A stretch of DNA of 64,000 bases from Lachnospiraceae bacterium (GTDB lineage: Bacteria; Bacillota; Clostridia; Lachnospirales; Lachnospiraceae), in NCBI GenBank assembly GCA_024696825.1, contig JAILGL010000075.1, positions 1 through 64,000 on the forward strand. The letters are read 5' to 3'. Below, in pieces: positions 40,647 to 60,117 of this stretch. Every line of letters starts with the position of its first letter. Position 1 is the first letter of the stretch. Under the pieces are notes generated by a model, which made no database searches, was not told the origin of the DNA, and saw only the letters and a program-made list of their open reading frames with translations. Made by a program: the position numbers and the translations under genes.

Positions 40647-41927
40647 ATGTCTTACTTAAATGATATTTACTTAAAGGCAGGAATTGACCAGGAGTTAATT
40701 CAGGCTACAAAGCAAATCGAAGGAGAGCTAAAGGAGAGATTTGAAAAAATCGATTCCATTTCAGAATATAACCAAATTAAGGTTATTAATGCCATGAGAA
40801 AATGTGGTGTTAATACTGAATGCATGGGTTCTTCCACAGGTTATGGTTATGACGACTATGGAAGAGAGGTTTTAGAAAAGGTTTATGCAACTGTATTTAA
40901 TACAGAGGATGCTTTAGTAAGGCCTTCTATTACCTGCGGTACACATGCCTTAACTCTAGCCCTTCGTGCAGTGCTTCGTCCGGGGGATGAGCTTCTTTGT
41001 CCTGCAGGAAGACCTTATGATACCCTTGAAGGAGTTATAGGTAAGAATGATAAAAATACTCCTGCTTCCCTAAAGGAATTTAATATTTCTTACAAAGAGA
41101 TTCCACTTTTAGATGGTGGTTTTAACTATGATGAAATTAAAAAAGCTATTAATGATAAGACAAAGCTTGTGGAGATTCAAAGATCTAAGGGCTATGATAT
41201 GAGACCTTCTTTTTCTGTGGAAGAGATTAATGAACTGGTTAGATTTATAAAGGATATTAAGCCTGAGGTTATCATTATGATTGATAACTGCTATGGTGAA
41301 TTTACTGAATTAGAAGAGCCTTCAGGTCTTATGTGCGATATGATTTGTGGTTCACTTATTAAGAATCCCGGTGGCGGGCTTGCCCCTATAGGAGGTTATA
41401 TAGCAGGAAGTAAAAAATGTGTTGAGCTCTGTGCCAATACCCTTACAGCACCTGGGCTTGGTAAGGAGGTAGGCGCCACCTTAGGAGTTAACAGAAGTCT
41501 TTTCCAGGGCTTTTTCATGGCTCCTGTAGTTACAGCCGGTGCCCTTAAGGGAGCTATTCTTTCTGCGGCTCTCTATGAAAAATATGGCTATGAATGTGTG
41601 CCAACTGCTGCAGAAGAGAGACATGATATAATTCAGTCTGTAAGACTAGGCAGTCGCGAGAAAATGGTTGCCTTCTGTGAAGGTATTCAGGCAGGTTCTG
41701 CAGTTGACTCTAATGTCTATCCTGAGCCTTATCCTATGCCAGGGTATCACAGCGATGTTATAATGGCTGCCGGTGCATTTATCCAGGGCTCCTCCATAGA
41801 GCTTTCAGCCGATGGTCCTATAGAAGAACCATATGCTGTATATTTTCAGGGTGGACTTACCTACTACAATGCCAAACTCGGCATTCTTACAAGTCTACAA
41901 AAACTTAAAAATAAAGGTCTATTATAG
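40647..41927 (+). CDS. Methionine gamma-lyase family PLP protein (aluminium resistance protein family)
   Basis: VRPSITCGTHALTLALRAVLRPGDELL...GYDMRPSFSVEEI...DNCYGEFTE...GSLIKNPGGGLAPIGGYIAG. Confidence 0.92.
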   Translation: MSYLNDIYLKAGIDQELIQATKQIEGELKERFEKIDSISEYNQIKVINAMRKCGVNTECMGSSTGYGYDDYGREVLEKVYATVFNTEDALVRPSITCGTHALTLALRAVLRPGDELLCPAGRPYDTLEGVIGKNDKNTPASLKEFNISYKEIPLLDGGFNYDEIKKAINDKTKLVEIQRSKGYDMRPSFSVEEINELVRFIKDIKPEVIIMIDNCYGEFTELEEPSGLMCDMICGSLIKNPGGGLAPIGGYIAGSKKCVELCANTLTAPGLGKEVGATLGVNRSLFQGFFMAPVVTAGALKGAILSAALYEKYGYECVPTAAEERHDIIQSVRLGSREKMVAFCEGIQAGSAVDSNVYPEPYPMPGYHSDVIMAAGAFIQGSSIELSADGPIEEPYAVYFQGGLTYYNAKLGILTSLQKLKNKGLL

Positions 41928-41941
41928 GCTTATAATCTTGC

Positions 41942-41986
41942 AAAAGCTCCCTGTGTATGTTATTATATACGTTCGGGAGCTTTTTT
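41942..41986 (+). terminator. Rho-independent terminator
   Basis: AAAAGCTCCC...GGGAGCTTTTTT hairpin with T tail just after the PLP gene. Confidence 0.8.
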
Positions 41987-42006
41987 ATATTGGTAGAAAG
42001 GGTTTC

Positions 42007-42705
42007 ATGTTTAGTAAAGAAGAAGTTAAAAACAAAGGCACTTATTTACGTCCCTATGAAAAATGTAAAATATATGGACCTGAGTGCTTAACAGATGCGG
42101 AACTAATAGCTATCATTATAAGATCCGGGGTTAAGGGTATAAGCTGTGAAGAGCTATCCTCGGAAATAATTAATTCTCTTCCCGGGGCTAATATTAGTGG
42201 CCTTTTAAGATGTAACGAAGAAGAATTAAAGGATATTAATGGTGTGGGCGAGGTTAAGGCTATTCAGATGATTGCCTTAAAGGAAATTACAAAAAGAGTA
42301 ACCAACAAAAGATTTGTAAATAATGAGCTTTCATTTGACTCACCTGATGTGGTTGCAGATAAGTACATGAACATTATGAGAGAAAAGGAGACGGAAGAGC
42401 TTTTGGTCCTTCTGCTAAACGCAAGAAATGTTCTAATTAAAGAACTTTGGCTTGCTAAGGGTTCCTTTAATTCGTGTGTGGCCTCTGCTAAAGAAGTCTA
42501 TTATTATGCCATAAAGCATAAGGCCAGTGGTATAATAATTGCTCATAATCATCCAACTGGTGATCCAACTCCAAGTGACAGCGACATTTATGTAACTAAC
42601 AAATTTGTAGATACCGGTGAACTGGTTAATATAACCCTTTTAGACCATATTATCATCGGAGAGAATGTTTATTTCAGCATGAAAGAACATAATCTAATAT
42701 CTTAG
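42007..42705 (+). CDS. radC: RadC/JAB-domain DNA repair protein homologue
   Basis: LTDAELIAIIIRSGVKG, IIIAHNHPTGDPTPSDSDI, LLDHIIIGENVYFSMKE. Start taken at ATG 42007, not the listed ORF start. Confidence 0.93.
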   Translation: MFSKEEVKNKGTYLRPYEKCKIYGPECLTDAELIAIIIRSGVKGISCEELSSEIINSLPGANISGLLRCNEEELKDINGVGEVKAIQMIALKEITKRVTNKRFVNNELSFDSPDVVADKYMNIMREKETEELLVLLLNARNVLIKELWLAKGSFNSCVASAKEVYYYAIKHKASGIIIAHNHPTGDPTPSDSDIYVTNKFVDTGELVNITLLDHIIIGENVYFSMKEHNLIS

Positions 42706-42726
42706 GTTTAATTTAGTGAGGTCATA

Positions 42727-43740
42727 ATGATACAGAAGGTTTATGGAATAGACTTTGGTACTGGAAGTATTAAAATATATAGAAAAAAAGATGGCATAAT
42801 CATGAATGAAAGAAATGTTATTGCCACCATGGGTAAGAATGAGAATAAACGAGCCATAGCAATGGGAGATGAGGCATATCTTATGTTTGAAAAATCCCCA
42901 GACTCTATCTCTGTTAACTTTCCTATGGTTAACGGCGGTGTAGCAAGGCTTTCAGATATGATAATGCTTTGGGATTATATGGCGGCTGAGATTACTGCGA
43001 AGCCTAAGCTTAAGGGAGCAAGATTTTATATAGCTGTTCCTGCTGACTTTAATGAGGTTGAGAAAAATGCCTTTAAAAAGGTTATTCAGGAGGGTAACAG
43101 TAAACCAAAATCTGTAAAGCTTATAGATAAACCTATTTGCGATGCCTTTGGTCTTAAGATTGATATTGATAAAACAGCGGGAGATATGATAGTAAATATC
43201 GGTGCCGATACTGTGGAAATATCAGTTATAGCAGGTGGAGGAATTGTTGTATCAAGACTTCTTCCTATGGGCGGTAATTACTTTGACAGACAGATTCTTA
43301 ATTACATTCGAAAGGAATATAATTTTGTAATCGGTCTTCGTACAGCTGAAGAGCTAAAGAAAAAGATTATTACTGCCAATCCTTCTGAAAGGACGGCAGA
43401 TGTATTTGGTAAAAATATGGTTTCAGGTCTTCCTGAAAATCTTACAGTTCATTCTGAAGAAATATATCCTTTGGTTGAGAATGTTTTTGCTGATCTTAGT
43501 ACTCAGATAACTAAGATTTTAGAGCATACTCCACCGGAGATTTCAGCATCCATCGAGAATAACGGTATATATCTTACCGGAGGTTCTTCCTGGATAAATG
43601 AATTAGATCAGTTTGTAGCAGACTCCACCTATATGAAGGTTAATACAACTAAGTTTGCTCAGAAAACTGTTATCTCAGGACTTGGTTACTTAATTGAAAA
43701 CCAGAAGCTTGCAGATAAATATGCTTTACCACTTTACTAA
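42727..43740 (+). CDS. mreB: Rod shape-determining protein MreB/Mbl
   Basis: GIDFGTGSIKIY actin-like phosphate loop, MIVNIGADTVEISVIAGGGIVVSRLLPMGGNYFDRQI; followed by mreC and mreD. Confidence 0.88.
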   Translation: MIQKVYGIDFGTGSIKIYRKKDGIIMNERNVIATMGKNENKRAIAMGDEAYLMFEKSPDSISVNFPMVNGGVARLSDMIMLWDYMAAEITAKPKLKGARFYIAVPADFNEVEKNAFKKVIQEGNSKPKSVKLIDKPICDAFGLKIDIDKTAGDMIVNIGADTVEISVIAGGGIVVSRLLPMGGNYFDRQILNYIRKEYNFVIGLRTAEELKKKIITANPSERTADVFGKNMVSGLPENLTVHSEEIYPLVENVFADLSTQITKILEHTPPEISASIENNGIYLTGGSSWINELDQFVADSTYMKVNTTKFAQKTVISGLGYLIENQKLADKYALPLY

Positions 43741-43780
43741 TTAATTATTTTTTATACATTAAATGGAGGTATTCCTTAAC

Positions 43781-44653
43781 ATGAAATTTAACAAAAGGAA
43801 TAATATAACCATTGATCCGAAATACATACTTATAATTATTATTGTTATATGTGTAATTATTGCGGTGATTTCCTTTAGATTTGAGGATAAGATGACTCCC
43901 GTAAGAAATGGTGTTACCTCGGTAGTTGCTCCTATGCAAAAGGGTGTTAATACCATCGGTGTTTGGTTAGCTGACAAAAAGGACTATTTTACCACTATGA
44001 ATAAGCTGGTAAAAGAGAATAAAAAGTTAAAAAAGCAGATTAAAAAAGTTAATGAAGAGAAACAGCTTTTACAGCAGAATAAATACGAGCTTAAAAACTT
44101 TAGAAAGCTTTATGACCTGGATGAGGAATATGCCGATTATCCTAAGGTTGCAGCCCGAGTTATTTCTTCTGATCCTGATAACTGGTTTAATACCTTTGTT
44201 ATAGATAAAGGTTCTAAGCATGGTATTAAGAAAAATATGAATGTTATCGCCGGTAACGGATTAGTTGGAAGAGTAACAGAGGTTAAAAATTCTTATTCTA
44301 CTGTTGTTTCCATCATTGATGATGAAAGTAATGTTTCAGGTTCTGTTCTTAAAACCAAGGATCATTGTATTGTTTCCGGTAATCTTTCCACTATGAATCA
44401 GGGAATTATAGATGTTAGCGGAATCAAGGCAGATTCAAAGGTTAAGGATGGATATGAGGTTGTGACCTCTCAGATTAGTGACAGATATCTTCCTGGAATC
44501 TTAATTGGTTATGTTAAGGATGTGAAAAAGGATTCTTCAAACCTTACACTTACAGGCTCACTTGTGCCTGCAGTTGACTTCACAAATCTTGAGATGGTTC
44601 TTGTTATAACCGAGCTTAAGGATTCAGAAGATTTGGAGGAGATGCTTAAGTGA
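43781..44653 (+). CDS. mreC: Rod shape-determining protein MreC
   Basis: One TM, coiled coil, ARVISSDPDNWFNTFVIDKGSKHGIKKNMNVIAGNGLVGRVTEV. GGAGGT SD upstream of ATG 43781. Confidence 0.93.
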   Translation: MKFNKRNNITIDPKYILIIIIVICVIIAVISFRFEDKMTPVRNGVTSVVAPMQKGVNTIGVWLADKKDYFTTMNKLVKENKKLKKQIKKVNEEKQLLQQNKYELKNFRKLYDLDEEYADYPKVAARVISSDPDNWFNTFVIDKGSKHGIKKNMNVIAGNGLVGRVTEVKNSYSTVVSIIDDESNVSGSVLKTKDHCIVSGNLSTMNQGIIDVSGIKADSKVKDGYEVVTSQISDRYLPGILIGYVKDVKKDSSNLTLTGSLVPAVDFTNLEMVLVITELKDSEDLEEMLK

Positions 44654-45195
44654 AAAAATACATTTTTGCATTCATAACTACTATTGTTATGTTTTTACTT
44701 CAAACCACAATATTTCCAAGAATTGCCATTAAGGATGTTATGCCAAATCTTTTACTGGTATGTGTAACAGTTTTTGGCTTTGTCTATGGAAGACGACTGG
44801 GAATGTTTACAGGTGTTTTATGTGGCATCCTTCACGATGTTATGTATAGCAGTGTAATTGGTTTGGTTGTTATATTATATGTTTTAATTGCTTATGTAAA
44901 TGGTTCTGTAATCAAGCAGTATTTTAGTAAGAATTATATAATTCTTGTAGTTACATTTGCATTAAGTGATTTAGCTTTTAATTTGTTATATTTTATTACC
45001 AGATTTCTTCTTAGAGGAAGAATCGAATTTATAACATTTTTTGTTCAAATCATGCTGCCGGAAATGATTTATACAAGTATCTGGGGATTAATTATATTTT
45101 CCATCGTAAGCCTTATCGATAAGAAAATATATCCACCTAGAGAAGTATTTGCAAAGGTCGGCGATGTTAAGATTAAGAGTCAAATAAAGGAGTAA
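44650..45195 (+). CDS. mreD: Rod shape-determining protein MreD
   Basis: Small multi-TM protein, 4-bp overlap with mreC, upstream of mrdA. Confidence 0.9.
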   Translation: MKKYIFAFITTIVMFLLQTTIFPRIAIKDVMPNLLLVCVTVFGFVYGRRLGMFTGVLCGILHDVMYSSVIGLVVILYVLIAYVNGSVIKQYFSKNYIILVVTFALSDLAFNLLYFITRFLLRGRIEFITFFVQIMLPEMIYTSIWGLIIFSIVSLIDKKIYPPREVFAKVGDVKIKSQIKE

Positions 45196-45198
45196 CCC

Positions 45199-48054
45199 AT
45201 GTGGGAAACCATTAAAACATATCTGGAAAAGTTTTTTAATAACAGATTACGTCCTATTACAGTTGTATATATACTCCTTCTTTCAATACTTGTTAACCGT
45301 ATGTTTGTTTTGCAGATTGCAAAGGTTGAAAAGTATGAAACTGCTGCAGATAACCTAACTCAGAAAACAAGGCTTATTAAGGCTACCAGAGGTAAGATAT
45401 ACGATTGTAACGGTAAGCTTTTAGCTTATAATAAATTATCATATAACGTTGTTCTAAAGGATTATGATGAGATTAATAATATGGAATCCGAGGAGAAAAA
45501 CTCACTTATTTATTATCTTATCAGACTAATTGAAAGTAATAAGGATACCATTGATATTGATTTTGGTATTACCATGAATAAAAATGGTAAGATGGAATAT
45601 TCCTTGGATGGTAATCCATTGCTGCTTTTTAAATCTGAGGTCTTTGCTGTTAAAAATGGTATTCAGGGCCTTACGGATGAGCAGAAGGAAATGGATGCAA
45701 GGGAGCTTTTTGAATACTTAAGAGAAGAGAAAAAAGCTAATACCACAAGCTTTGGAATTGATGAAAAATATGATGATAAAACAGCACTTAAAATCATGGC
45801 TATAAGATATGCTTTATTTATAAATCGTTATAAGGAGTATATGCCTATAGTTGTTTCTAAAAATATTAAGAATGAAACGGTTGCAGCCATAGAAGAAAAC
45901 TCTATGGATTTACCAGGTGTTGATATTTCACAGGATACCACCAGAAAGTATAAGAAGAGTAAGTATTTTGCTCATATGCTTGGTTATACAGGAACTGTAT
46001 CCGATGAAAAGCTTGAAGAGCTTAATAAAAACAATAAGGGTGATGAATATACCTCAGAAGATCAGGTAGGTATCTCAGGTCTTGAAAGCACCTTTGAAAA
46101 ATATCTTCGTGGTAAAAAGGGTAAAGAAAAGCTTGTTGTAGATGCTAATACCAGTAATGTTATAACCTATTCCAGTGTTGAAGCGCCGGAAGCAGGAAAT
46201 GACTTATACCTTACCATAGATGCAGATCTTCAGGAGGAGTGCTATAAGCTTTTAGAAGAGCATATTGCAGGTATCCTGGTATCTAAGATTACTCAGGGTA
46301 CTGACGCAGGAACCAGAGGCCATTCCTCTAAGGATATTAAGGTTCCAATCTATGATGTTTACAATGCTCTTATTTGTAACAATATAGTTAACCCTTCAAG
46401 ATTTACCGATAGTGCGGCTTCTCCTTTAGAGAAGAAAACCTATAAGAAGTTTAAGAGAAAAAGAAAAGTTATATTTAAAAAAATGAGAAAATATCTTGCT
46501 TATAATTCTAATAAGACCAATGATGATCTCACAAAATATAACAAGGATTTCTTAGAATATTTTTATGAATTTATTAGAGAAAATGAGATAATAAAATCCT
46601 CTAAAATTAAGACCAGTGATTCTTATTACAGGGATTATAAAAACGATAGAATAAGCCTTTCTAAGTTCCTGCAACACTGCATTTCAAAGAACATGGTTGA
46701 TCTATCCTTACTTAAGGTTGGAGATAATTATTATAGTACAGAGGAAATATATGAGAAGCTTTTAGATTATACCTTTAAGCAGTTAGAAAAGGATAATAAA
46801 TTCTCCAAAAAGATTTACAGCTATCTCATTTATCACTATGAGCTTTCAGGTAAGGATATATGCCTTATGCTTTTTGATCAGGGTGATATAAAATATAACG
46901 AACATGATTATCAGAAGCTTAAAAGAGGTGTTATTTCTTCCTACAGCTTTATTATGAAAAAGCTTAAGAAGTTAGAGATTACACCTGGTGAATTAGGCCT
47001 TGACCCTTGCTCCGGTTCAGTGGTTATTACTGATGTTAAAACCGGTGATGTTAAGGCTATGGTCACCTATCCAAGCTATGACAATAATAAAATGGCTAAT
47101 CAGGTAGATTCTGAGTATTTCTATACTTACCTTACTGAGAATTCTTCCTCACCGTTAATTAACAGACCTACCCAGCAAAAGCTTGCTCCAGGTTCTACCT
47201 TCAAGGTAGTTTCCTCTATAGCAGGTATGGAAGAGGGTGTTATTACTCCGGATTCAAGAATTTTAGATAAGACAGTATTTACTGAAATTACTCCTTCACC
47301 TAAGGACTGGACCACAGTTTCCCATGGTAACATCAATGTTTCCCAGGCTATCGGAGTTTCCTGTAACTATTTCTTCTATACAGTTGGTTACAGACTTGCA
47401 GGTACCTATAAGGGCACTGTTAACAATAAACGTGGTCTTTCAAGGCTTAAGAAATACGCAGAAATGTTTGGACTTACAGATAAGTCCGGTGTGGAGGTTC
47501 AGGAAACTGAGCCATCCTTCTCAACTACTGATATCGTAAGAACTGCTATCGGACAGGCTACTAACAGTTATACTCCGGTACAGCTTTCAAGATATATAAC
47601 TACTGTTGCTAACAAGGGAACCTGTTATAATCTTACTCTTATTGATAAGGTTAAGGACATTAATGGTAAAACAGTTCTTAAGAAAAAACCTGATGTACGA
47701 AATAAGGTTGAGATTAATGATTCCTCCTGGACAGCAGTTCATAAGGGTATGAGACTTGTGGTAAATGGACCTGAAAGCTCTATTAATGAGTATTTTGACA
47801 GGTTAAAGGTTGATGTGGCAGGTAAAACCGGTACTGCTCAGCAGACCACCCTTCACGCTAACCACGCTTACTTCGTTTCATTTGCACCTTATAACAAGCC
47901 TAAAATCTGTGTTACCACAGTTATTCCTAATGGTTATGCTTCAGCAAATGCGGCCTATGCAGCCAGTGATATTTATAAATATTACTTCAGTAGCCGTAAG
48001 AAGAAGGTTTCCGGTGGAATCAAGGTGGATTCAGATGCTAAGGTTACAGACTAG
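45199..48054 (+). CDS. mrdA: Penicillin-binding protein 2 (class B transpeptidase)
   Basis: LAPGSTFKVVSS (SxxK), SCN, AGKTGTAQQTT (KTG), PBP dimer domain TRGKIYDCNGKLLAYN. Confidence 0.93.
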   Translation: MWETIKTYLEKFFNNRLRPITVVYILLLSILVNRMFVLQIAKVEKYETAADNLTQKTRLIKATRGKIYDCNGKLLAYNKLSYNVVLKDYDEINNMESEEKNSLIYYLIRLIESNKDTIDIDFGITMNKNGKMEYSLDGNPLLLFKSEVFAVKNGIQGLTDEQKEMDARELFEYLREEKKANTTSFGIDEKYDDKTALKIMAIRYALFINRYKEYMPIVVSKNIKNETVAAIEENSMDLPGVDISQDTTRKYKKSKYFAHMLGYTGTVSDEKLEELNKNNKGDEYTSEDQVGISGLESTFEKYLRGKKGKEKLVVDANTSNVITYSSVEAPEAGNDLYLTIDADLQEECYKLLEEHIAGILVSKITQGTDAGTRGHSSKDIKVPIYDVYNALICNNIVNPSRFTDSAASPLEKKTYKKFKRKRKVIFKKMRKYLAYNSNKTNDDLTKYNKDFLEYFYEFIRENEIIKSSKIKTSDSYYRDYKNDRISLSKFLQHCISKNMVDLSLLKVGDNYYSTEEIYEKLLDYTFKQLEKDNKFSKKIYSYLIYHYELSGKDICLMLFDQGDIKYNEHDYQKLKRGVISSYSFIMKKLKKLEITPGELGLDPCSGSVVITDVKTGDVKAMVTYPSYDNNKMANQVDSEYFYTYLTENSSSPLINRPTQQKLAPGSTFKVVSSIAGMEEGVITPDSRILDKTVFTEITPSPKDWTTVSHGNINVSQAIGVSCNYFFYTVGYRLAGTYKGTVNNKRGLSRLKKYAEMFGLTDKSGVEVQETEPSFSTTDIVRTAIGQATNSYTPVQLSRYITTVANKGTCYNLTLIDKVKDINGKTVLKKKPDVRNKVEINDSSWTAVHKGMRLVVNGPESSINEYFDRLKVDVAGKTGTAQQTTLHANHAYFVSFAPYNKPKICVTTVIPNGYASANAAYAASDIYKYYFSSRKKKVSGGIKVDSDAKVTD

Positions 48055-48131
48055 GTTTTAAGCTTTGTTTTTACTTGTGTTTTAGCTTTTAAATTTTGTT
48101 TTAAGTTTTAGTTTAAGAGGTTTTATAATTA

Positions 48132-49349
48132 ATGTTAAAGATACTTAAAAAATATGATTGGAAGAGGATTGATGTAGTTCTAATCTTTATGGTTTTATCT
48201 CTCTGTGCTATCGGTGTTTTCGCCGTTAGACAGGCAGGTGGGGCTGATAAGGGTCCTGGCTACATGAAAAACCAGCTTTTTGGTATAGCTCTCGGCATAG
48301 TTATAATTCTTATAATCATGGTTATGGATTATCATTTTATATGCCGTTTCGCTCCAATTTACTATGTTGGTGGTGTTTTACTTACACTTGCTACCCATAC
48401 ACCTCTCGGAAACGATCATACAACTGACGCTGTAAGATGGATAGATTTAGGTCCTATTACTTTCCAGCCTTCCGAGCTTATGAAGGTAATATTCATCATA
48501 TTTATCGGTTGGATTTATGAGAGGTGGCATAAAAAAGTTTATAAAATATCAACTCTTGTAAAGGTCTTTTTACTTACACTTATACCAATGCTTGCAATCC
48601 TTTCACAGCCCGACCTTTCATCAAGTCTTGTGGTGTTCTTTATCATGCTTTCAGTAGCATTTGCCGCAGGTACTTCCTATAGAATTTTCGGCTGGGTTTT
48701 CGGTATTACAATACCGGTTTTAGGATTATCACTTTGGTATTTTACAAGACCATTTTCATTTTCCTATAAATATCTTTACGAGAATATTTACCAGTTCAGG
48801 CGTATTGTTGCATGGATTAATCCTGATACTCAAAACGCCATGGACGCTAACTACCAGCAGCTTCGTTCTGTAAGTTCCATAGCTTCCGGTAAGCTTTATG
48901 GTAAATTCCTTGTGGATGGTGGAGTTGGTTCAAGAGTATATAATACTGTTTACGTTAAGGAGAGTGACTTCGTCTGGTCAGTTATCGGCGAAGAATTCGG
49001 ATTTTTGGGTTGTTTATTAGTTCTTATTCTCTATGCAATTCTTATTATAAGATGCATAAGAATCAGTAAACAGGCGCAAAGCTTCCAGGGACGAATGATT
49101 GCAATTGGTGTAGCTGCAATGTTTGTGTTCCAGGTATTTACAAATATAAGCGTTGCTACCTTTATGTTCCCAAATACCGGACTTCCTCTGCCTTTCCTAA
49201 GTAATGGTCTAAGTTCCATGGTTTCCGCTATGATTGGTATAGGTCTGGTTATGAATATCAGTATTCAGCCAAACAAGTCATCAAAGGGCGGTTTACATCT
49301 TAGATCAAGCTATGATGATTTTTACTCAATTGAGGATGAAATGTTTTAA
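48132..49349 (+). CDS. rodA: FtsW/RodA/SpoVE family glycosyltransferase
   Basis: WIDLGPITFQPSELMKV, SQPDLSSSLVV, FVWSVIGEEFGFLG, PNTGLPLPFLSNGLSS. Confidence 0.94.
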   Translation: MLKILKKYDWKRIDVVLIFMVLSLCAIGVFAVRQAGGADKGPGYMKNQLFGIALGIVIILIIMVMDYHFICRFAPIYYVGGVLLTLATHTPLGNDHTTDAVRWIDLGPITFQPSELMKVIFIIFIGWIYERWHKKVYKISTLVKVFLLTLIPMLAILSQPDLSSSLVVFFIMLSVAFAAGTSYRIFGWVFGITIPVLGLSLWYFTRPFSFSYKYLYENIYQFRRIVAWINPDTQNAMDANYQQLRSVSSIASGKLYGKFLVDGGVGSRVYNTVYVKESDFVWSVIGEEFGFLGCLLVLILYAILIIRCIRISKQAQSFQGRMIAIGVAAMFVFQVFTNISVATFMFPNTGLPLPFLSNGLSSMVSAMIGIGLVMNISIQPNKSSKGGLHLRSSYDDFYSIEDEMF

Positions 49350-49355
49350 ATTCTC

Positions 49356-49384
49356 TTGTGTCAATAGGTGAAAAATGCTATAAT
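49356..49384 (+). promoter_or_regulatory. Candidate extended -10 promoter upstream of mgsA (TTGTGT-17-TATAAT)
   Basis: TTGTGT 49356-49361, TATAAT 49379-49384 preceded by TGC. Confidence 0.55.
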
Positions 49385-49434
49385 AAAGATTGGGTTTACA
49401 ACGGATTTAGGTATTTTATTTTAAGGGGGCAAAT

Positions 49435-49830
49435 ATGAATATTGGGGTTGTTGCACACGATTCAAAAAAGATTCTCATGCAGAATTTTTCCATTGCATAT
49501 AGGGGAATCTTAAGCAAACATGACATTTATGCAACGGGAACTACAGGAAGACTTATAGAAGAGGTCACTAATCTGACCATTCACAAGTATCTTGCAGGTC
49601 ACTTGGGAGGCGAGCAGCAGCTTGCTTCACAGATTGAGCATAATCAGATTGATATGGTTATATTTTTGAGAGATCCAAACTCTCCAAAACAGCATGAGCC
49701 TGACGTTTATAACGTTATGCATCTTTGCGATACCTATAACATTCCATATGCTACTAATCTGGCAACTGCAGAGCTTTTGGTTAAAGCTCTTGACAGAGGC
49801 GATCTTGAGTGGCGCGAGGCTGTTAGATAA
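49435..49830 (+). CDS. mgsA: Methylglyoxal synthase
   Basis: VAHDSKK, ATGTTGRLIEE, GHLGGEQQLASQI, VIFLRDPNSPKQHEPDV. Confidence 0.96.
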   Translation: MNIGVVAHDSKKILMQNFSIAYRGILSKHDIYATGTTGRLIEEVTNLTIHKYLAGHLGGEQQLASQIEHNQIDMVIFLRDPNSPKQHEPDVYNVMHLCDTYNIPYATNLATAELLVKALDRGDLEWREAVR

Positions 49831-49871
49831 ATCTCTATAATAGTTTTCGTTTTATTTTAAGGTGAATAATT

Positions 49872-50855
49872 ATGAGTTTTTTTAAGAAAAGAGTGATTCC
49901 TACATTTTTATTATTTTCATTAGTCATAATAAATCTGTCAGGTTGCGCTGTAGAGGTTGATCCTACTTTTTCTAATACAGAGATTAAGCTCTCTGATTCC
50001 ATTAGTAATAAAAGTGTTTCATATACTGAGGATTACATTTCCAAGGATATTGCAATTGTTAATTCTGAGGATATGACCGAGGATGATTCAGCCTTTAGTG
50101 CAGACTCATGTATGTTAGTTAATATTTCTAAAAATGAAGCTGTATATGCTAAGGATGTTCATAAAAGACTTTATCCTGCATCTACAACTAAGGTTATAAC
50201 AGCATTACTGGCTCTTGAGAATTGCGATCCTAACGAGACCGTTACATTTTCATATGCGGCTACTCATATTACAGAGCCCGGCGCCATGAAATGCGGCTTT
50301 GAAGAAGGGGATAAGATAAAGCTTAAAAACCTTTTGTTTTGTATGATGCTTTTCTCAGGCAATGACGCTGCACAGGGTGTTGCAGAGCATGTTGCAGGAA
50401 GCGTAAAGAATTTTTCTAAAATGATGAATAAGAAGGCTGCTGAAATCGGTGCTTCTGATTCACATTTTGTTAATCCTCACGGCTTACACAGTAAGAGACA
50501 TTATACTACAGCTTATGATTTATATTTATTCTTTAATCAGGCTTTAAAGTATAAGCTTTTTAGAAAGATTATTAATACACCGCAGTATCAGACTGATTAT
50601 AAGGACAAAGACGGTGGTGACCATCATATGATTTGTAATACCACAAATCAGTACATTAAGGGGACTACAGCTACTCCTAAGGGAGTTAAGGTTATAGGTG
50701 GTAAGACGGGTACAACCTCTGATGCAGGCGCCTGTCTCATTATATGCAGCAAGAATACAAATACCGGTGAAGAATTTGTTTCGGTGGTTCTTAAGGCCTT
50801 TGATCATTATCAGCTTTATACCCAGATGACGGCTTTACTGGAAAAAATCGAGTAG
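49872..50855 (+). CDS. D-alanyl-D-alanine carboxypeptidase (S11 family), predicted lipoprotein
   Basis: Lipobox LSGC; STTK, SGN and KTGT active-site motifs. Confidence 0.9.
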   Translation: MSFFKKRVIPTFLLFSLVIINLSGCAVEVDPTFSNTEIKLSDSISNKSVSYTEDYISKDIAIVNSEDMTEDDSAFSADSCMLVNISKNEAVYAKDVHKRLYPASTTKVITALLALENCDPNETVTFSYAATHITEPGAMKCGFEEGDKIKLKNLLFCMMLFSGNDAAQGVAEHVAGSVKNFSKMMNKKAAEIGASDSHFVNPHGLHSKRHYTTAYDLYLFFNQALKYKLFRKIINTPQYQTDYKDKDGGDHHMICNTTNQYIKGTTATPKGVKVIGGKTGTTSDAGACLIICSKNTNTGEEFVSVVLKAFDHYQLYTQMTALLEKIE

Positions 50856-50921
50856 TAAATAATTAAATGCATTTTAATACATTTATGTGTTTTAATATTG
50901 ATTAATAAAGGTATGGAATAG

Positions 50922-52376
50922 GTGAGTACAACGAGTAATAAGAAGAAAAAGGGCAGTAGTAATACTGATTCTAATGTTAAAGATAAAGTTATTAAAATCA
51001 AAAATAAATCCAACAATAACAGTAGTTTCGTTGCCGGCGCTATTCTTGTTCTTATTGCAGGCTTCGTACTATATGTATTTTTTATGACTATTTCTAAAAA
51101 ATCTCTGGCCATTTATGAGGTTAACAAAAAGAGCATTTCCGATAATGACGTGGTTCGCGGCTTAGTGCTTAGAGATGAAACAGTCGTAAAAAGCTCTTCT
51201 TCCGGTTATATTAATTATTTTGTGGGAGAGGGTCAGAAGGTTGGTATTAACGGTAGAATCTATTCTCTGGATGAAACCGGTGATGTGTTTAAGGAAATAA
51301 CCAATGAGTTAAATGTGGATACCACTGATAATATGGCTATTGATGAAATCAGAAGCTCCATTAAGGATTTTCGAAATGATTATACTCCATCCAATTATGA
51401 GTCTATCCAAAGCTTCCAATATAACATTAACAATACCATCGAGCAGATTTCCATAGAGGAATCTCGTACGAAGATTAATAAAATGCTTCGAAATAACAGG
51501 AATACCACAGGCTTTACAGTCTATAAGTCCGAAAAATCAGGTATAGTTTCCTATATCACTGATAATAAAGAGGATTTAAAGCTTAGAGATATTACCTATA
51601 AGCATTTTGAAGATACATCAGATTCTAAAAATGTTATTAAACAAAATTCCTTTGTTAAAACAGGTGACAATGTATATAAGCTAATTAACAGCAACAGATG
51701 GTCTATCGTTGTGCCTGTTTCCGAATCAAAATATAAAAACATCAAAAAGCAGGGTACAGTCAGCATTACCTTAAAAAAGATTAATGTTACAACCTACCCT
51801 AGTACCAAGACCTTTAAGAGAGACGGCAAATACTACGCTGTATTTACCTTAAGCAATTATCTCGAGCAATATATTAATTCAAGATACATTGATTTACAGA
51901 TTAATCTAAATGGAGCTTCAGGTTATCAGATACCTATCTCATCCATAGTGGAAAGAAAGGCCTTTTATATTCCTAAGGAATTCTTAACCTTTAATACAGA
52001 TAATAATTCCTGTGTATTTATGGATAAGGCCGATACCGAAAAGAAGGATAGCTCCGTTAAAAATGATTATGTACTTTCTGAGGTTTCTATCTATACCACT
52101 GATGAAGACGGTAATTATTACATTTCTTCTAATAATCTTAAGGAGGGTGTGGTTATCTACTCCAGCACCGGTAAGGATTATCAGCTAAAGGCTCCAAAGC
52201 TTATGGAGGGTGTATATAATTGTAATTACGGATACTGTAAATTCAACTATATAGAGGTTTTATATGAAAATAGCGAATTTGCCATAGTAAGCAGCAAAAC
52301 CTCATATGGACTTTCACTCTATGATCATATAGTTTTAAATGCAGATATAATAGATGAAAACGATTTGATCTATTAA
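50922..52376 (+). CDS. HlyD-like membrane-fusion/periplasmic adaptor protein
   Basis: GTG start, one N-terminal TM, HlyD-like segments (GLVLRDETVVKSSSSGYINYFVGEGQKVG...), located upstream of yggS. Confidence 0.7.
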   Translation: MSTTSNKKKKGSSNTDSNVKDKVIKIKNKSNNNSSFVAGAILVLIAGFVLYVFFMTISKKSLAIYEVNKKSISDNDVVRGLVLRDETVVKSSSSGYINYFVGEGQKVGINGRIYSLDETGDVFKEITNELNVDTTDNMAIDEIRSSIKDFRNDYTPSNYESIQSFQYNINNTIEQISIEESRTKINKMLRNNRNTTGFTVYKSEKSGIVSYITDNKEDLKLRDITYKHFEDTSDSKNVIKQNSFVKTGDNVYKLINSNRWSIVVPVSESKYKNIKKQGTVSITLKKINVTTYPSTKTFKRDGKYYAVFTLSNYLEQYINSRYIDLQINLNGASGYQIPISSIVERKAFYIPKEFLTFNTDNNSCVFMDKADTEKKDSSVKNDYVLSEVSIYTTDEDGNYYISSNNLKEGVVIYSSTGKDYQLKAPKLMEGVYNCNYGYCKFNYIEVLYENSEFAIVSSKTSYGLSLYDHIVLNADIIDENDLIY

Positions 52377-52414
52377 TAATAAAATACAATTAATTTAGAT
52401 AGGGGATGAAAATA

Positions 52415-53110
52415 ATGTCAGTTGCCACTAATCTTGTAAATGTTATGAATAACATTGAAAATGCTTGTAATAAGGTTAACAGAGACTTAAAGGATGTTAC
52501 TCTTATTGCAGTAAGTAAAACCAAGCCTAATGAAATGATTATGGAAGCCTATAATGAGGGCTATCGTAATTTTGGTGAGAATAAGGCTCAGGAAATGAAG
52601 AGAAAAAAGGAAGAGCTTCCTGATGATATTAATTGGCATTTTATAGGACATTTACAGACTAACAAGGTTAAATATGTTGTAGGTAATGCAGTTCTTATAC
52701 ATTCTGTTGACTCACTTCACCTGGCAGAGGCTATTAGTAAGGAGTCTGTTAAGAAAAATGTTATAAGTGATATTCTTATAGAGGTTAATGTAGCAAAGGA
52801 AGAGACAAAATTCGGTCTAAGCCTTGAAAATACGGAAAATCTCGTTAGAGAAATTGCTACACTTCAGAATATACGCGTAAAAGGTCTTATGACAATCGCG
52901 CCATATACCGAAAATCCTGAATCTAATCGTGAGATTTTTCGCAATTTACGCGAATTGTTAGTTGACATTAAGGCCAAAAACATAGATAATGTAAGTATGG
53001 ATTTTCTTTCAATGGGTATGACTGGTGATTACATGGTTGCTATTGAAGAGGGAGCGAATTTTGTAAGAGTTGGAACCGGAATATTCGGTGAGAGAAATTA
53101 TAGTATTTAA
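52415..53110 (+). CDS. YggS family PLP-binding protein
   Basis: LIAVSKTKPNEMI, NFGENKAQEMKRK, WHFIGHLQTNKVKYVV, LSMGMTGDYMVAIEEGANFVRVGTGIFG. Confidence 0.95.
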   Translation: MSVATNLVNVMNNIENACNKVNRDLKDVTLIAVSKTKPNEMIMEAYNEGYRNFGENKAQEMKRKKEELPDDINWHFIGHLQTNKVKYVVGNAVLIHSVDSLHLAEAISKESVKKNVISDILIEVNVAKEETKFGLSLENTENLVREIATLQNIRVKGLMTIAPYTENPESNREIFRNLRELLVDIKAKNIDNVSMDFLSMGMTGDYMVAIEEGANFVRVGTGIFGERNYSI

Positions 53111-53178
53111 TATATAAAATATTTGGCGATTACTCTTATTTAATTAAATATGATTATCGCAGGAATGGAAGGGAAACA

Positions 53179-53817
53179 ATGGCTAATTTTGCAGAGAAGT
53201 TAATGAGTGCATTAAACATGGACGGCGGTGCTGATTATGAAGAGGATATCTATGAGGATGACTTCGACGATTCATATGATGACGACGACGATTATGATGA
53301 TTCATTTTTAGATGAGGAAGAAGAAGAAGAAAGAGCACCTAAGAAAAAATCACCTCTTAGCTTTAGACGTTCTGCTAAAACTAACAGAAGATACAGTTCT
53401 TCCAGAGAAGAAGAGCCTGAAGAGGAAACATCTTATTCTTCCAGAAGAAGAACTTCTATTACAAAAACTAAAAATCAGGAAACAGGGAAGGTAGTTAAAT
53501 TGTTAAATACATCATCTGGTAATTCATTTGAATTACAAACTCAGAAGCCTATGAATACTAATGATTCTGCTAAGATTTGTGACAGCATTAAGCAGGGTAA
53601 GCCTGTTGTTGTTAATCTTGAAGCTTTAGAGGGGTTTGAGGCTCAGAGAATTATTGATATCGTTTCAGGTTGTGTATATGCTGTTGATGGTAACATTTGT
53701 ACCGTTTCAAAATATATTTATATTTTCACACCTGGCAATATAGATATCACAGGGGATTTAATTAATTCTTCTGATTTCAGTGAGGATTTTCCTACTGTAG
53801 AGAATGAAGTATATTAA
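53179..53817 (+). CDS. sepF: Cell division protein SepF
   Basis: Acidic linker then SepF core (AKICDSIKQGKPVVVNLEALEGFEAQRIIDIVSGCVYAVDG). Confidence 0.93.
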   Translation: MANFAEKLMSALNMDGGADYEEDIYEDDFDDSYDDDDDYDDSFLDEEEEEERAPKKKSPLSFRRSAKTNRRYSSSREEEPEEETSYSSRRRTSITKTKNQETGKVVKLLNTSSGNSFELQTQKPMNTNDSAKICDSIKQGKPVVVNLEALEGFEAQRIIDIVSGCVYAVDGNICTVSKYIYIFTPGNIDITGDLINSSDFSEDFPTVENEVY

Positions 53818-53885
53818 TTATTATTTACGAAATTTTTGATGCTTTAGCATCTAAAATATAAAACTTAAGAGGAGGTAGTACACTT

Positions 53886-55139
53886 ATGCTTACACCAGTT
53901 GACATTAGAAGTCACATTTTTAAGGCCGGTATGGGCGGCAATTACAACAGTAAAGAGGTTAATGAATTTATTGATCTTGTAGCAGGGGATTACGAGACTC
54001 TATTCAAAGAGAATGAGGATTTAAAATCCAAAATCACTGAACTTAATGAGGGCGTACAGTATTATAAGAATATGGAGAGTACCCTTCAGAAAGCACTTCT
54101 TCATGCGCAGATGGAAGCTGATAAGGTTATCGCTGAAGCTAATGAAGAGGCTCAATCTATTACTAATGGTGCTAATGAGCAGGCAGAGGCTACTTTATCT
54201 CAAGCTAATGAGCAGGCAGAGGCTACTTTATCTCAGGCTAATGAAGAGGCTGAGACATTAAGAAGTTCTTCTAAGGAAGAAGCTGATACTATGCTTAGAG
54301 AAGCTACAGAGAAGTCTGAAGCTCTCACTAAGGAAGCAGAAGAAAAGCACAGCACTCTTATGTCTGAGGCAACTGAGAAGTCTGAGGCTATGGTTAAGGA
54401 AGCTACAGAGAAGTCTGAGAAGATGCTTGCAGATGCTCAGACAGAAACAGATAATATGCTTAAGACTAAGAATGACGAGTTAAAGGATATTAATGCACAG
54501 ATTGATACTATTCAGAAATGCTTCGATGATTTTAAGACTAAGTTTGTTGAAGTATTAAATCTTCAGTTAAAATCTGTTGAGGATGGTTCATTTGATGTTA
54601 AGGTTGATGGTCTTGAGGATGCAGTTAAGGCTTCTAAGGATACTATCGCTAAGAACGATGAAATGTTCGCACAGAACGCAAAGGATCAGGTTGAAAGAAT
54701 CAATGCATTTGATGATCCTTCAGAAGAGCTTGATAAGGATGGTCTTAATGCATCAGGTCTTAACTTTGATATTGACAGATCTGCTAATGCAGGTATTACT
54801 ATTGACGATCCTGTTGAAGAGCCGGTTGTTGAAGAAGCAGCACCTGAGGTTGCTATGGATGAGGTTCCAGTTGATGAAGTTCCTGTTGAAGAGGTTCCTA
54901 TGGATGAAGCTCCAGAAGCAGCACCTGCTGGAAGTGATTTCGGCTTTGTTTCAAATGAAAATGCTAATGGATATGAAATGCCAGATATGCAGGATGAATT
55001 CGATACTCCTGTAGATGATATTCCAGTTGAAGCTCCTGTTGAGGAAGTTCCAGTTGAGGAAATGCCTGTAGAAGAGGCTCCTGCAGAGGATGCATCCGGT
55101 GATAATGCCGCTGGTGGATTTACATTTATTGATGCATAA
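53886..55139 (+). CDS. divIVA: DivIVA domain protein with hendecad-repeat coiled coil and acidic PVEEVP-rich tail
   Basis: MLTPVDIRSHIFKAGMGGNYNSKEVNEFIDLVAGDYETL is a DivIVA N-terminus; adjacent to sepF and lspA. Confidence 0.92.
   Translation: MLTPVDIRSHIFKAGMGGNYNSKEVNEFIDLVAGDYETLFKENEDLKSKITELNEGVQYYKNMESTLQKALLHAQMEADKVIAEANEEAQSITNGANEQAEATLSQANEQAEATLSQANEEAETLRSSSKEEADTMLREATEKSEALTKEAEEKHSTLMSEATEKSEAMVKEATEKSEKMLADAQTETDNMLKTKNDELKDINAQIDTIQKCFDDFKTKFVEVLNLQLKSVEDGSFDVKVDGLEDAVKASKDTIAKNDEMFAQNAKDQVERINAFDDPSEELDKDGLNASGLNFDIDRSANAGITIDDPVEEPVVEEAAPEVAMDEVPVDEVPVEEVPMDEAPEAAPAGSDFGFVSNENANGYEMPDMQDEFDTPVDDIPVEAPVEEVPVEEMPVEEAPAEDASGDNAAGGFTFIDA
54105..54467 (+). repeat. Eleven in-frame 33-bp (11-aa) repeat units in divIVA
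   Basis: Contiguous 11-residue units from AQMEADKVIAE to AQTETDNMLKT. Units at 54171-54203 and 54204-54236 differ at one base. Confidence 0.85.
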
Positions 55140-56682: not shown

Positions 56683-57123
56683 ATGATTGATTTTAGTAAT
56701 CAGGCTGAACTGAATGCATATTTAAATGATCCAAACAATAAGGTAGTTAGACTTCATGATGGAGAATTAAATGTTATGGAGTTAATCTGGGCTAATGGCC
56801 AGTTATCAGCCAAGGATATAGCAAGTGTTATAAAGGAATATATCGGTTGGGAGAAAAATACCACCTATACCGTTATAAAAAGACTTATTGATAAGGGTGT
56901 TATCGAAAGAACAGATCCAGGCTTTATATGTAAGCCTTTAATTGAAAAGGAAACTGTTCAAAAAATCGAAACCTCTATTCACATAAAGCAACTCTACAAC
57001 GGTAAAATATCCGATTTCATCCATGAATACCTGGCTAATCAGGATCTTACCATAGAAGATATCTATGAGATGAGTGTGATAGTAGACAGCTTCAGAAATG
57101 GAAGCAGTACATATCTATCATAA
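56683..57123 (+). CDS. BlaI/MecI/CopY family winged-helix regulator
   Basis: LNVMELIWANGQLSAKDIASVIKEYIGWEKNTTYTVIKRLIDKGVIER is a typical BlaI winged helix. Confidence 0.85.
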   Translation: MIDFSNQAELNAYLNDPNNKVVRLHDGELNVMELIWANGQLSAKDIASVIKEYIGWEKNTTYTVIKRLIDKGVIERTDPGFICKPLIEKETVQKIETSIHIKQLYNGKISDFIHEYLANQDLTIEDIYEMSVIVDSFRNGSSTYLS

Positions 57124-58179
57124 CCAGTCGTCAGTTTTCTCTGATGCAATTTTACGTGCAGCCTGCTTAGAACGAACGTATTTCTTAGAGGTTTCAAGCC
57201 TGCTGTGACCAAGTGCATCACTAACTAGGAAAATGTCTCCACTAGCGTCATAAAGCTGTGTAGCATAGGATGCTCTAAGCTTATGAGGTGTAATATGTTT
57301 ATTAGGAACTGCAACAGTTGCATATTTTTTTACTAAATTACCAACAGATTTGTTGGTAATTCTTTTTTTCTGTAAGGAATAGAATAAAGGCGTTTTATCC
57401 TCAGCATTTTGAGATAAGGTAACCCTTTCTATATCAATATAATCCACCAGAGCCTTTTTAACCCTGTCATTATAATAAACAGATTGTTCTTTTTCACCCT
57501 TTCTAATAATTCGAACAGCGTTATGATTTAGGTCCAAATCGCCTATATTAATGCCTACAAGCTCTGAAATACGCATTCCTGTACCTAAAAACAGCATCAT
57601 AATTGCTGTATCTCTATACTTGGTTTTAAGATAATAATCCAGGGCTTTTTTCTGATTAGTAGACTCCAAATAGGATTCCCAGCCGGTTACGGCCTTTAAA
57701 AATGCCTGAATTTCGTCTTTTTCAAGGGCAATTACGTCTTTTTCCCTTATTTTAGGCATTTTCACAAGGGCTGCTGTATTCTCTGTAATGTCCGGATACT
57801 CATGATTTACAGCCAAAAACTGATATAAATTGCGTAATGCAGTGAGTTTTCTGGCAGTTCCATGTTCCTTAGAAACACGGCTGTTACCATTTAAATCAAT
57901 ATATGAAGAGGTATCAGATATATATTCAATAATATCTACGCGTCTAATAGCGGCAAATACCTTAGGTGTTATGTCTTTATAGGATTTTAGAGATGAGTTA
58001 TTATCTACAAGATAATCTAAGAAGCTTTTAATATTAATGGCATAGCCAAGCCTTGTACTTGTAGTTGTACTGGTAACAAGTGAATTAATATAATCCTTAA
58101 TGAAGGATGGAAAATCCTTTGTGATTTCTTTTACCTTATTTAAATTTTTAAAATCAGTTTCATTTTTATAGTTAGACAT
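57118..58179 (-). CDS. Tyrosine recombinase (XerC/XerD-like)
   Basis: Catalytic residues in GTGMRISELVGI, HKLRASYATQL, LGHSRLETSKKYV. GGAGGT SD before ATG 58179. Confidence 0.92.
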   Translation of the reverse strand: MSNYKNETDFKNLNKVKEITKDFPSFIKDYINSLVTSTTTSTRLGYAINIKSFLDYLVDNNSSLKSYKDITPKVFAAIRRVDIIEYISDTSSYIDLNGNSRVSKEHGTARKLTALRNLYQFLAVNHEYPDITENTAALVKMPKIREKDVIALEKDEIQAFLKAVTGWESYLESTNQKKALDYYLKTKYRDTAIMMLFLGTGMRISELVGINIGDLDLNHNAVRIIRKGEKEQSVYYNDRVKKALVDYIDIERVTLSQNAEDKTPLFYSLQKKRITNKSVGNLVKKYATVAVPNKHITPHKLRASYATQLYDASGDIFLVSDALGHSRLETSKKYVRSKQAARKIASEKTDDWL

Positions 58180-58436: not shown

Positions 58437-58456
58437 GCCCTACTATCCTGTAGGGC
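58437..58456 (-). terminator. Candidate rho-independent terminator downstream of the LysM gene
   Basis: Perfect 7-bp stem GCCCTAC/GTAGGGC with 6-nt loop; minus strand continues TTTATTTATT. Confidence 0.55.
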
Positions 58457-58711: not shown

Positions 58712-59056
58712 TTAATTCTCATAAACAGGTACTGCAATATAACTGTCAGGAATTAATGTATCGTTCTTAAGTGAATTAGTCTCCTTTATAACAGTTACAT
58801 ACTTCTTAACTGAACCAAACTGTGATGTGTAATGGTCAGCTGCAATTTCCCATAATGTATCGCCATCCTGAACCTTAACACTGATAAGCTTCTGTTTCTG
58901 ATCAGTGGATGCACTGGATACCTTGGCCGTATAATGGAAAATACCTAATGAAATTACTGCTCCAAGAATTATAACAGCTGCAATAAAATAATAGTTTCTA
59001 AAAATAATATATCTACCCTTTGAATCTTTTCTAAATAAATTAATCATCCTATCCAT
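58712..59056 (-). CDS. Membrane-anchored LysM protein, YneA-like candidate cell-division suppressor
   Basis: N-terminal TM then ISVKVQDGDTLWEIAADHY (LysM). LexA-box promoter, downstream neighbour of lexA. Confidence 0.8.
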   Translation of the reverse strand: MDRMINLFRKDSKGRYIIFRNYYFIAAVIILGAVISLGIFHYTAKVSSASTDQKQKLISVKVQDGDTLWEIAADHYTSQFGSVKKYVTVIKETNSLKNDTLIPDSYIAVPVYEN

Positions 59057-59110
59057 AACAAATACCTCCTAATCTGTTAATGCATGTCCTTATAAGGATC
59101 ACACGAACAT

Positions 59111-59173
59111 CAAACCTTTGTTCTAATACGTATTATATCATCGAACATATTTTCTGTCAAGAACATATTTTCG
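59111..59173 (-). promoter_or_regulatory. SOS promoter of the LysM gene: TTGACA-17-TATAAT with three LexA-like boxes
   Basis: Minus-strand TTGACA (59160-59155) and TATAAT (59137-59132). Boxes at 59142-59155, 59160-59173 and 59111-59124. Confidence 0.75.
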
Positions 59174-59379: not shown

Positions 59380-60006
59380 TTACATATAGCTTCTATATAA
59401 GCCAATTAGCTTTCCAACTATAATTAGTTCTCTGTTTTTAACGATAATCGGATCCATGGTATCATTCTCAGGCTGGAGAACTACATAATCCTTTTCTTTT
59501 CTATATGTCTTAATAGTTGCTGAATCCTCTAATATAGCTACTACTATATCTCCATTAGACGCCGTGTTCTGCTTTTTGATAAGTACCATATCGCCGTCAT
59601 ATATACCGGCATTAATCATACTTTCACCCTTAATCTTAAGCATGAACAGTTCACCCTGTGGCATCTCTTCTGCTAGCATAGGGAAATATCCTGTAATATT
59701 CTGATCTGCAAATATAGGAAGACCTGCAGCTACCTCTCCCACTACGGGAATATTAACTATCTCTCTTTCCTGTATATTAAACTCATCATCTACAACAACT
59801 ATGGTTCTTGGCTTAGATGGATCCTTCTTAATATAACCCTTTTGTTCGAGCTTTTGTAATTGGTTATGAACTGAGGAAGTAGAGCTAAGACCAACAGCTG
59901 CACCTATCTCTCGAACAGATGGAGCATAGCCTCTCTTCATTACCTCTTCCTTAATATAATCCAGTATAACCTGTTGTTTCGCAGTTAGAGAATTCTTATC
60001 ACTCAT
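59380..60006 (-). CDS. lexA: LexA repressor
   Basis: LTAKQQVILDYIKEEVMKRGYAPSVREIGAAVGLSSTSSVHNQLQKLEQKGYI, cleavage site VAAGLPIF, catalytic GESM and Lys in SATIKTY. Start at MSDKNSLTAK. Confidence 0.97.
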   Translation of the reverse strand: MSDKNSLTAKQQVILDYIKEEVMKRGYAPSVREIGAAVGLSSTSSVHNQLQKLEQKGYIKKDPSKPRTIVVVDDEFNIQEREIVNIPVVGEVAAGLPIFADQNITGYFPMLAEEMPQGELFMLKIKGESMINAGIYDGDMVLIKKQNTASNGDIVVAILEDSATIKTYRKEKDYVVLQPENDTMDPIIVKNRELIIVGKLIGLYRSYM

Positions 60007-60068: not shown

Positions 60069-60117
60069 CGAACCTTAGTTCTTTTTTGATTATAACACGA
60101 ACAAATATTCGTGTCAA
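60069..60117 (-). promoter_or_regulatory. Autoregulated lexA promoter: TTGACA-17-TATAAT with two LexA boxes
   Basis: Minus-strand TTGACA (60117-60112) and TATAAT (60094-60089). LexA boxes CGAACAAATATTCG 60098-60111 and CGAACCTTAGTTCT 60069-60082. Confidence 0.85.

Follow-up and report, generated by a model that had tools for sequence, protein, structure and literature searches.

LexA bound to a promoter blocks RNA polymerase, and the block is lifted when RecA triggers the cleavage of LexA. The Gram-positive SOS division inhibitors YneA, SosA, ChiZ and DivS form a recognised group (PMC6851548), with described examples from Bacillus, Listeria, Staphylococcus and the Actinobacteria. In Bacillus subtilis, the transmembrane (TM) domain of YneA binds TM7 of FtsW, the LysM domain must bind peptidoglycan, and the substitutions D46A, T47A and I81A each abolish activity (PMC13396833). 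In Clostridium thermocellum, Clo1313_1450 encodes a protein of YneA-like domain structure and is divergent from lexA, with LexA sites that DAP-seq and a motif scan detected and that are conserved in other organisms (PMC8457756). In C. difficile, a lexA mutant is filamentous (PMC4689574), which is consistent with a LexA-repressed division inhibitor in Clostridia. Our search of a literature library for an SOS division inhibitor in Lachnospiraceae found no paper.

Here we analyze a 64,000-nucleotide stretch of a Lachnospiraceae genome (contig JAILGL010000075.1, positions 1 to 64,000; hereafter the window), in which a reading of the sequence alone had proposed an SOS-controlled LysM membrane protein near lexA. 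We refer to the gene as yneA. The features of the locus are as follows.

58437-58456, minus strand: terminator-like hairpin 3' of the LysM gene
58712-59056, minus strand: yneA, YneA-type protein of 114 aa, with an N-terminal TM helix (model residues 15-47) and a LysM domain (55-112)
59065-59070, minus strand: ribosome-binding site AGGAGG, 8 nt before the ATG, from sequence
59111-59124, minus strand: LexA-like box C, at the predicted transcription start (about +1), AGAACAAAGGTTTG, 11.5 bits, rank 4 in the window
59132-59137, minus strand: -10 element TATAAT
59142-59155, minus strand: LexA-like box B, occupying the promoter spacer, AGAAAATATGTTCG, 15.4 bits
59155-59160, minus strand: -35 element TTGACA
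59160-59173, minus strand: LexA-like box A, adjoining the -35, CGAAAATATGTTCT, 15.4 bits
59313-59349, minus strand: strong 17-bp hairpin after lexA, then a U-run (-17.3 kcal/mol, z -6.2)
59380-60006, minus strand: lexA, codirectional with yneA and upstream of it (TIGR00498, 230.6 bits, cut-off 111)
60069-60082, minus strand: LexA box near the lexA start site, exact consensus on the plus strand, 8.6 bits by matrix
60089-60117, minus strand: lexA promoter TTGACA-17-TATAAT, with a LexA box in the spacer (60098-60111, 18.0 bits, rank 1)

The proposal that the minus strand encodes a LysM membrane protein of 114 residues was borne out. The open reading frame at 58712-59056 starts with ATG, and its product matches the Pfam LysM family PF01476 at residues 61-110 (E=1.4e-05); Pfam and the AlphaFold model together give a single TM helix and a single LysM domain, and no enzymatic domain. 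The model (mean pLDDT 84.8) has one long helix (residues 15-47) ahead of a LysM fold of beta-alpha-alpha-beta topology, and LysM domains are its top solved-structure matches in Foldseek (probability 1.00, with an E value of only ~0.02). The product would be inserted in the membrane with its LysM domain outside. It carries a GDTLW motif that includes D66 and T67, positions read from the motif and not from an alignment with B. subtilis YneA.

Upstream of yneA we recovered the perfect minus-strand promoter that the sequence-only reading had noted. The elements at 59160-59155 and 59137-59132 match TTGACA-17-TATAAT at 12 of 12 positions, with TG preceding the -10, and in the 3.7 kb scanned this score is reached only by the promoters of yneA and lexA. 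The three LexA-like boxes likewise lie where they had been placed, next to the -35 (box A, which has one base in common with it), in the spacer and at the start site. In each box only one of the half-sites is perfect, and a naive consensus allowing two mismatches is no commoner in the 64-kb window than in shuffles (28 matches vs 33 expected), as would be the case if the boxes were chance matches in AT-rich DNA and the gene were not SOS-regulated. Because the naive consensus showed no enrichment, we used instead a symmetric LexA matrix learned from 294 sites upstream of yneA in 71 distinct relatives, with the window left out. The best four positions in the window by this independent matrix are one lexA box (18.0 bits) and then the three yneA boxes (15.4, 15.4 and 11.5 bits, ranks 2-4). 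A first-order random model of the window's composition gives 1.6 sites of at least 11 bits per 64 kb, equivalent to 0.006 per 250 bp. These ranks, together with the conserved positions of the boxes in the promoters of relatives, argue against chance, an explanation that we consider extremely improbable.

Beyond the window we sampled the regulon by pattern only, and found perfect matches before recA, a Y-family DNA polymerase gene and addB, as well as at a few unrelated places. The relatives' matrix scores the recA sites at 16.9 and 14.6 bits, the Y-family polymerase site at 16.2 bits and the addB site at 12.0 bits, but none of the unrelated sites above 10 bits. As the matrix thus picks out recA, the polymerase gene and addB but not the unrelated places, the motif learned from relatives is the predicted LexA box of the organism to which the window belongs. 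A separate regulon search with a degenerate pattern was discarded as too strict, having returned only the lexA box and one AT-rich palindrome.

The gene had also been described as codirectional with lexA and downstream of it, unlike the divergent yneA of B. subtilis, and this was confirmed, with a flip of lexA as its likely origin. Lying 323 bp downstream of lexA on the same strand, yneA could belong to a lexA operon as its distal gene, in which case the box-like sequences would matter little. However, the 17-bp hairpin and U-run lie between the two genes, and yneA is therefore most likely its own transcription unit, separate from the lexA gene upstream. It also has its own perfect promoter, and the three operators are kept in relatives in which yneA is divergent from lexA or unlinked to it. 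We therefore regard membership of a lexA operon as very unlikely.

As to how a separate yneA unit came to follow lexA, the order rsfS-lexA-yneA-tyrosine recombinase (xer) recurs in relatives with lexA pointing away from yneA, and in the window the orientation of lexA is reversed relative to both rsfS and yneA. Judging from these gene orders, the codirectional placement is best explained by a local, derived, in-place flip of lexA, during which yneA would have kept its own operators. The lexA promoter region (60069-60117) mirrors that of yneA, with a perfect TTGACA-17-TATAAT and LexA boxes in the spacer and at the start site; this layout may have been retained, or restored, at the flip of lexA. 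The same gene order on one strand, nadD-yqeK-rsfS-lexA-yneA, is found in the Lachnospiraceae MAG SUG799 (L115; JALFLW010000010.1), whose yneA resembles that of the window in orientation, in sequence (41% identity over 104 aa) and in having LexA boxes at its own promoter, but is separated from lexA by a much shorter gap (~73 bp) and runs to the contig end. In Butyribacter (L121), lexA is turned as in the window relative to rsfS and the locus has no yneA, and in the congener G002 (L062, G002:C54:90000-104000) lexA lies ~30 bp downstream of a putative alanyl-tRNA synthetase gene on the same strand. These fall in one 14-member group of the LexA tree (SH-aLRT 96), where the window forms a long branch, so that the tree does not decide between one flip and two for the window and L115.

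We then consider how widely the gene and its promoter are conserved in Lachnospiraceae, the family in which the named relatives of its LexA, taken with the record of the window's own species left out, place the genome. At a limit of E<=1e-4, a profile built from 24 homologues has hits in 295 of the 348 genomes of the family, and the weakest hits (~1e-5) may be other LysM proteins. The window protein has low identity to its relatives (18-37%), with conservation mostly in the LysM part, and the homologue alignment shows no variation at W69 and N94. The promoter is recognisable in 67 of the 71 distinct relatives, a LexA box occupies the TTGACA-TATAAT spacer in 66, and all three boxes are present in 51, compared with 0.05 (spacer box) and 0 (all three) in dinucleotide shuffles of the same 71 sequences. 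Since the matrix was trained on these relatives, the shuffles and the left-out window serve as controls.

A wider survey, which overlaps the 71, comprised 113 loci in which yneA and lexA diverge (three or more boxes in 106 of them), 10 in which yneA is unlinked from lexA (all with at least two boxes and nine with at least three; range 2-4) and 2 that end at a contig edge; it contained no codirectional lexA-yneA pair. A separate set of named loci centred on lexA comprised 45 divergent pairs, 34 loci without yneA and a single codirectional pair, that of L115. In one genome, G296, the LysM yneA (L209:5132-5515, G296:C9) lies ~30 kb from lexA and retains three LexA boxes of 19.0, 15.9 and 12.1 bits, indicating that yneA is an autonomous unit. 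Among draft genomes of congeners we recognised no copy in G001 or G002, and G003 gave only a match at E=0.09, suggesting that the gene can be lost.

The sequence-only reading had further proposed that the gene is LexA-controlled and of YneA type, and its neighbourhood, the family-wide three-operator promoter and the NCBIfam YneA model NF010723, which matches 24 of 24 relatives scanned, support this strongly. Its reading of the protein as a probable counterpart of YneA is well supported. Architecture, lexA adjacency and predicted operators are in favor, and NF010723 is the best family for the window protein (E=1.2e-14), but at 54.0 bits the match falls narrowly under the 60-bit cut-off, as it does for nine of ten other relatives (47-59 bits; the tenth scores 61.2). 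We therefore do not claim formal membership of NF010723 and describe the protein as one that probably works like YneA, within a lexA-linked, YneA-like family of Clostridia.

Compared with YneA of B. subtilis and Listeria, the window protein is similarly small, with one N-terminal TM helix, one extracellular LysM domain, a GDTLW motif, lexA as a neighbour and predicted LexA operators; it differs in that its gene is codirectional with lexA, three operators cover the promoter and the TM sequence is not clearly conserved. By description it is also like Clo1313_1450, a YneA-like LysM protein gene beside lexA with LexA sites (PMC8457756), from whose divergent orientation it departs, and like SosA (Staphylococcus), ChiZ (Mycobacterium) and DivS (Corynebacterium), which are SOS-controlled single-TM inhibitors encoded beside lexA (PMC6851548). 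SosA and DivS lack the LysM domain found here, and SosA is not clearly homologous to the other inhibitors.

Alternatively, the LysM membrane protein might be regulated by LexA but have another role, such as protecting or remodelling the wall during DNA damage. Many wall enzymes and coat proteins contain LysM domains, and these are families that some relatives weakly match, and the TM residues through which B. subtilis YneA contacts FtsW could not be identified in the window protein. On the other hand, a single TM helix with a single LysM domain and no enzymatic domain, linkage to lexA and YneA as the best family are features of the Gram-positive SOS inhibitors (PMC6851548), and we judge such another role unlikely. 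The window gene is, on its sequence features, very probably the Lachnospiraceae YneA-type SOS division inhibitor.

Should it act in this way, LexA dimers in an undamaged cell would sit on the three operators over a strong sigma-A-type promoter and keep yneA off. Upon DNA damage, RecA filaments would stimulate self-cleavage of LexA and the yneA promoter would open; both LexA binding to the boxes and damage induction are predicted from the operator sequences. The small bitopic membrane protein would then be made, and its extracellular LysM domain would bind peptidoglycan. On the model of B. subtilis YneA, the protein may arrest division by acting at the divisome (FtsW/PBP2B), with FtsW as the presumed target, to block the synthesis of septal wall, and a CtpA-type protease would remove it afterwards. 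Genes of the FtsW/RodA type and a single S41 (CtpA-type) protease gene are predicted in the genome to which the window belongs.

Other genes near lexA are of interest in their own right. In four relatives the gene divergent from lexA (L118:1978-2811, L119:1893-2747, L131:1-815 and L134:2098-2865) encodes a protein with one TM helix, a bacterial SH3 domain and a low-complexity tail. The three of these proteins that were scanned match SH3_3 with E values of 7e-11 to 6e-13. LexA-like boxes lie in the intergenic region next to lexA in L118, L131 and L134, and G296 and G135 have the same gene pair. The SH3 protein is possibly another SOS envelope protein. We considered it as a replacement for YneA in the four loci, but G296 carries both this gene beside lexA and the distant LysM yneA, which weakens the case for simple replacement. 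In the window, 57118-58179 (minus strand) encodes an XerS-like tyrosine recombinase (195 bits vs a cut-off of 267), and such a gene accompanies the lexA-yneA locus in many relatives, in either orientation. Within ~20 kb of yneA, 41833-55139 (plus strand) contains a putative shape and division cluster of radC, mreB, mreC, mreD, PBP2, rodA, mgsA, SepF and DivIVA genes. We rejected an assignment of the SEDS gene at 48132-49349 as FtsW, since its score is slightly better for RodA and it is part of the mre cluster.

A LexA-controlled YneA-like gene was already known from C. thermocellum (PMC8457756), and the window gene is real and largely expected; the novelty is small and consists of the flip of lexA and the quantification of a multi-operator promoter that is independent of position. 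We see about an even chance that, across Lachnospiraceae, the division inhibitor forms an SOS unit of its own, whose fixed three-operator promoter stays intact after separation from lexA or a flip of lexA, that the locus is in flux in the window's sub-clade, with yneA lost or unlinked or lexA inverted, and that the triple operator would make yneA one of the SOS genes that are held most tightly and released last. Genes of this kind are often recognised by their position next to lexA, which is not essential and comes in more than one orientation, and the testable rule is that yneA has its own multiple LexA operators wherever it is placed relative to lexA.
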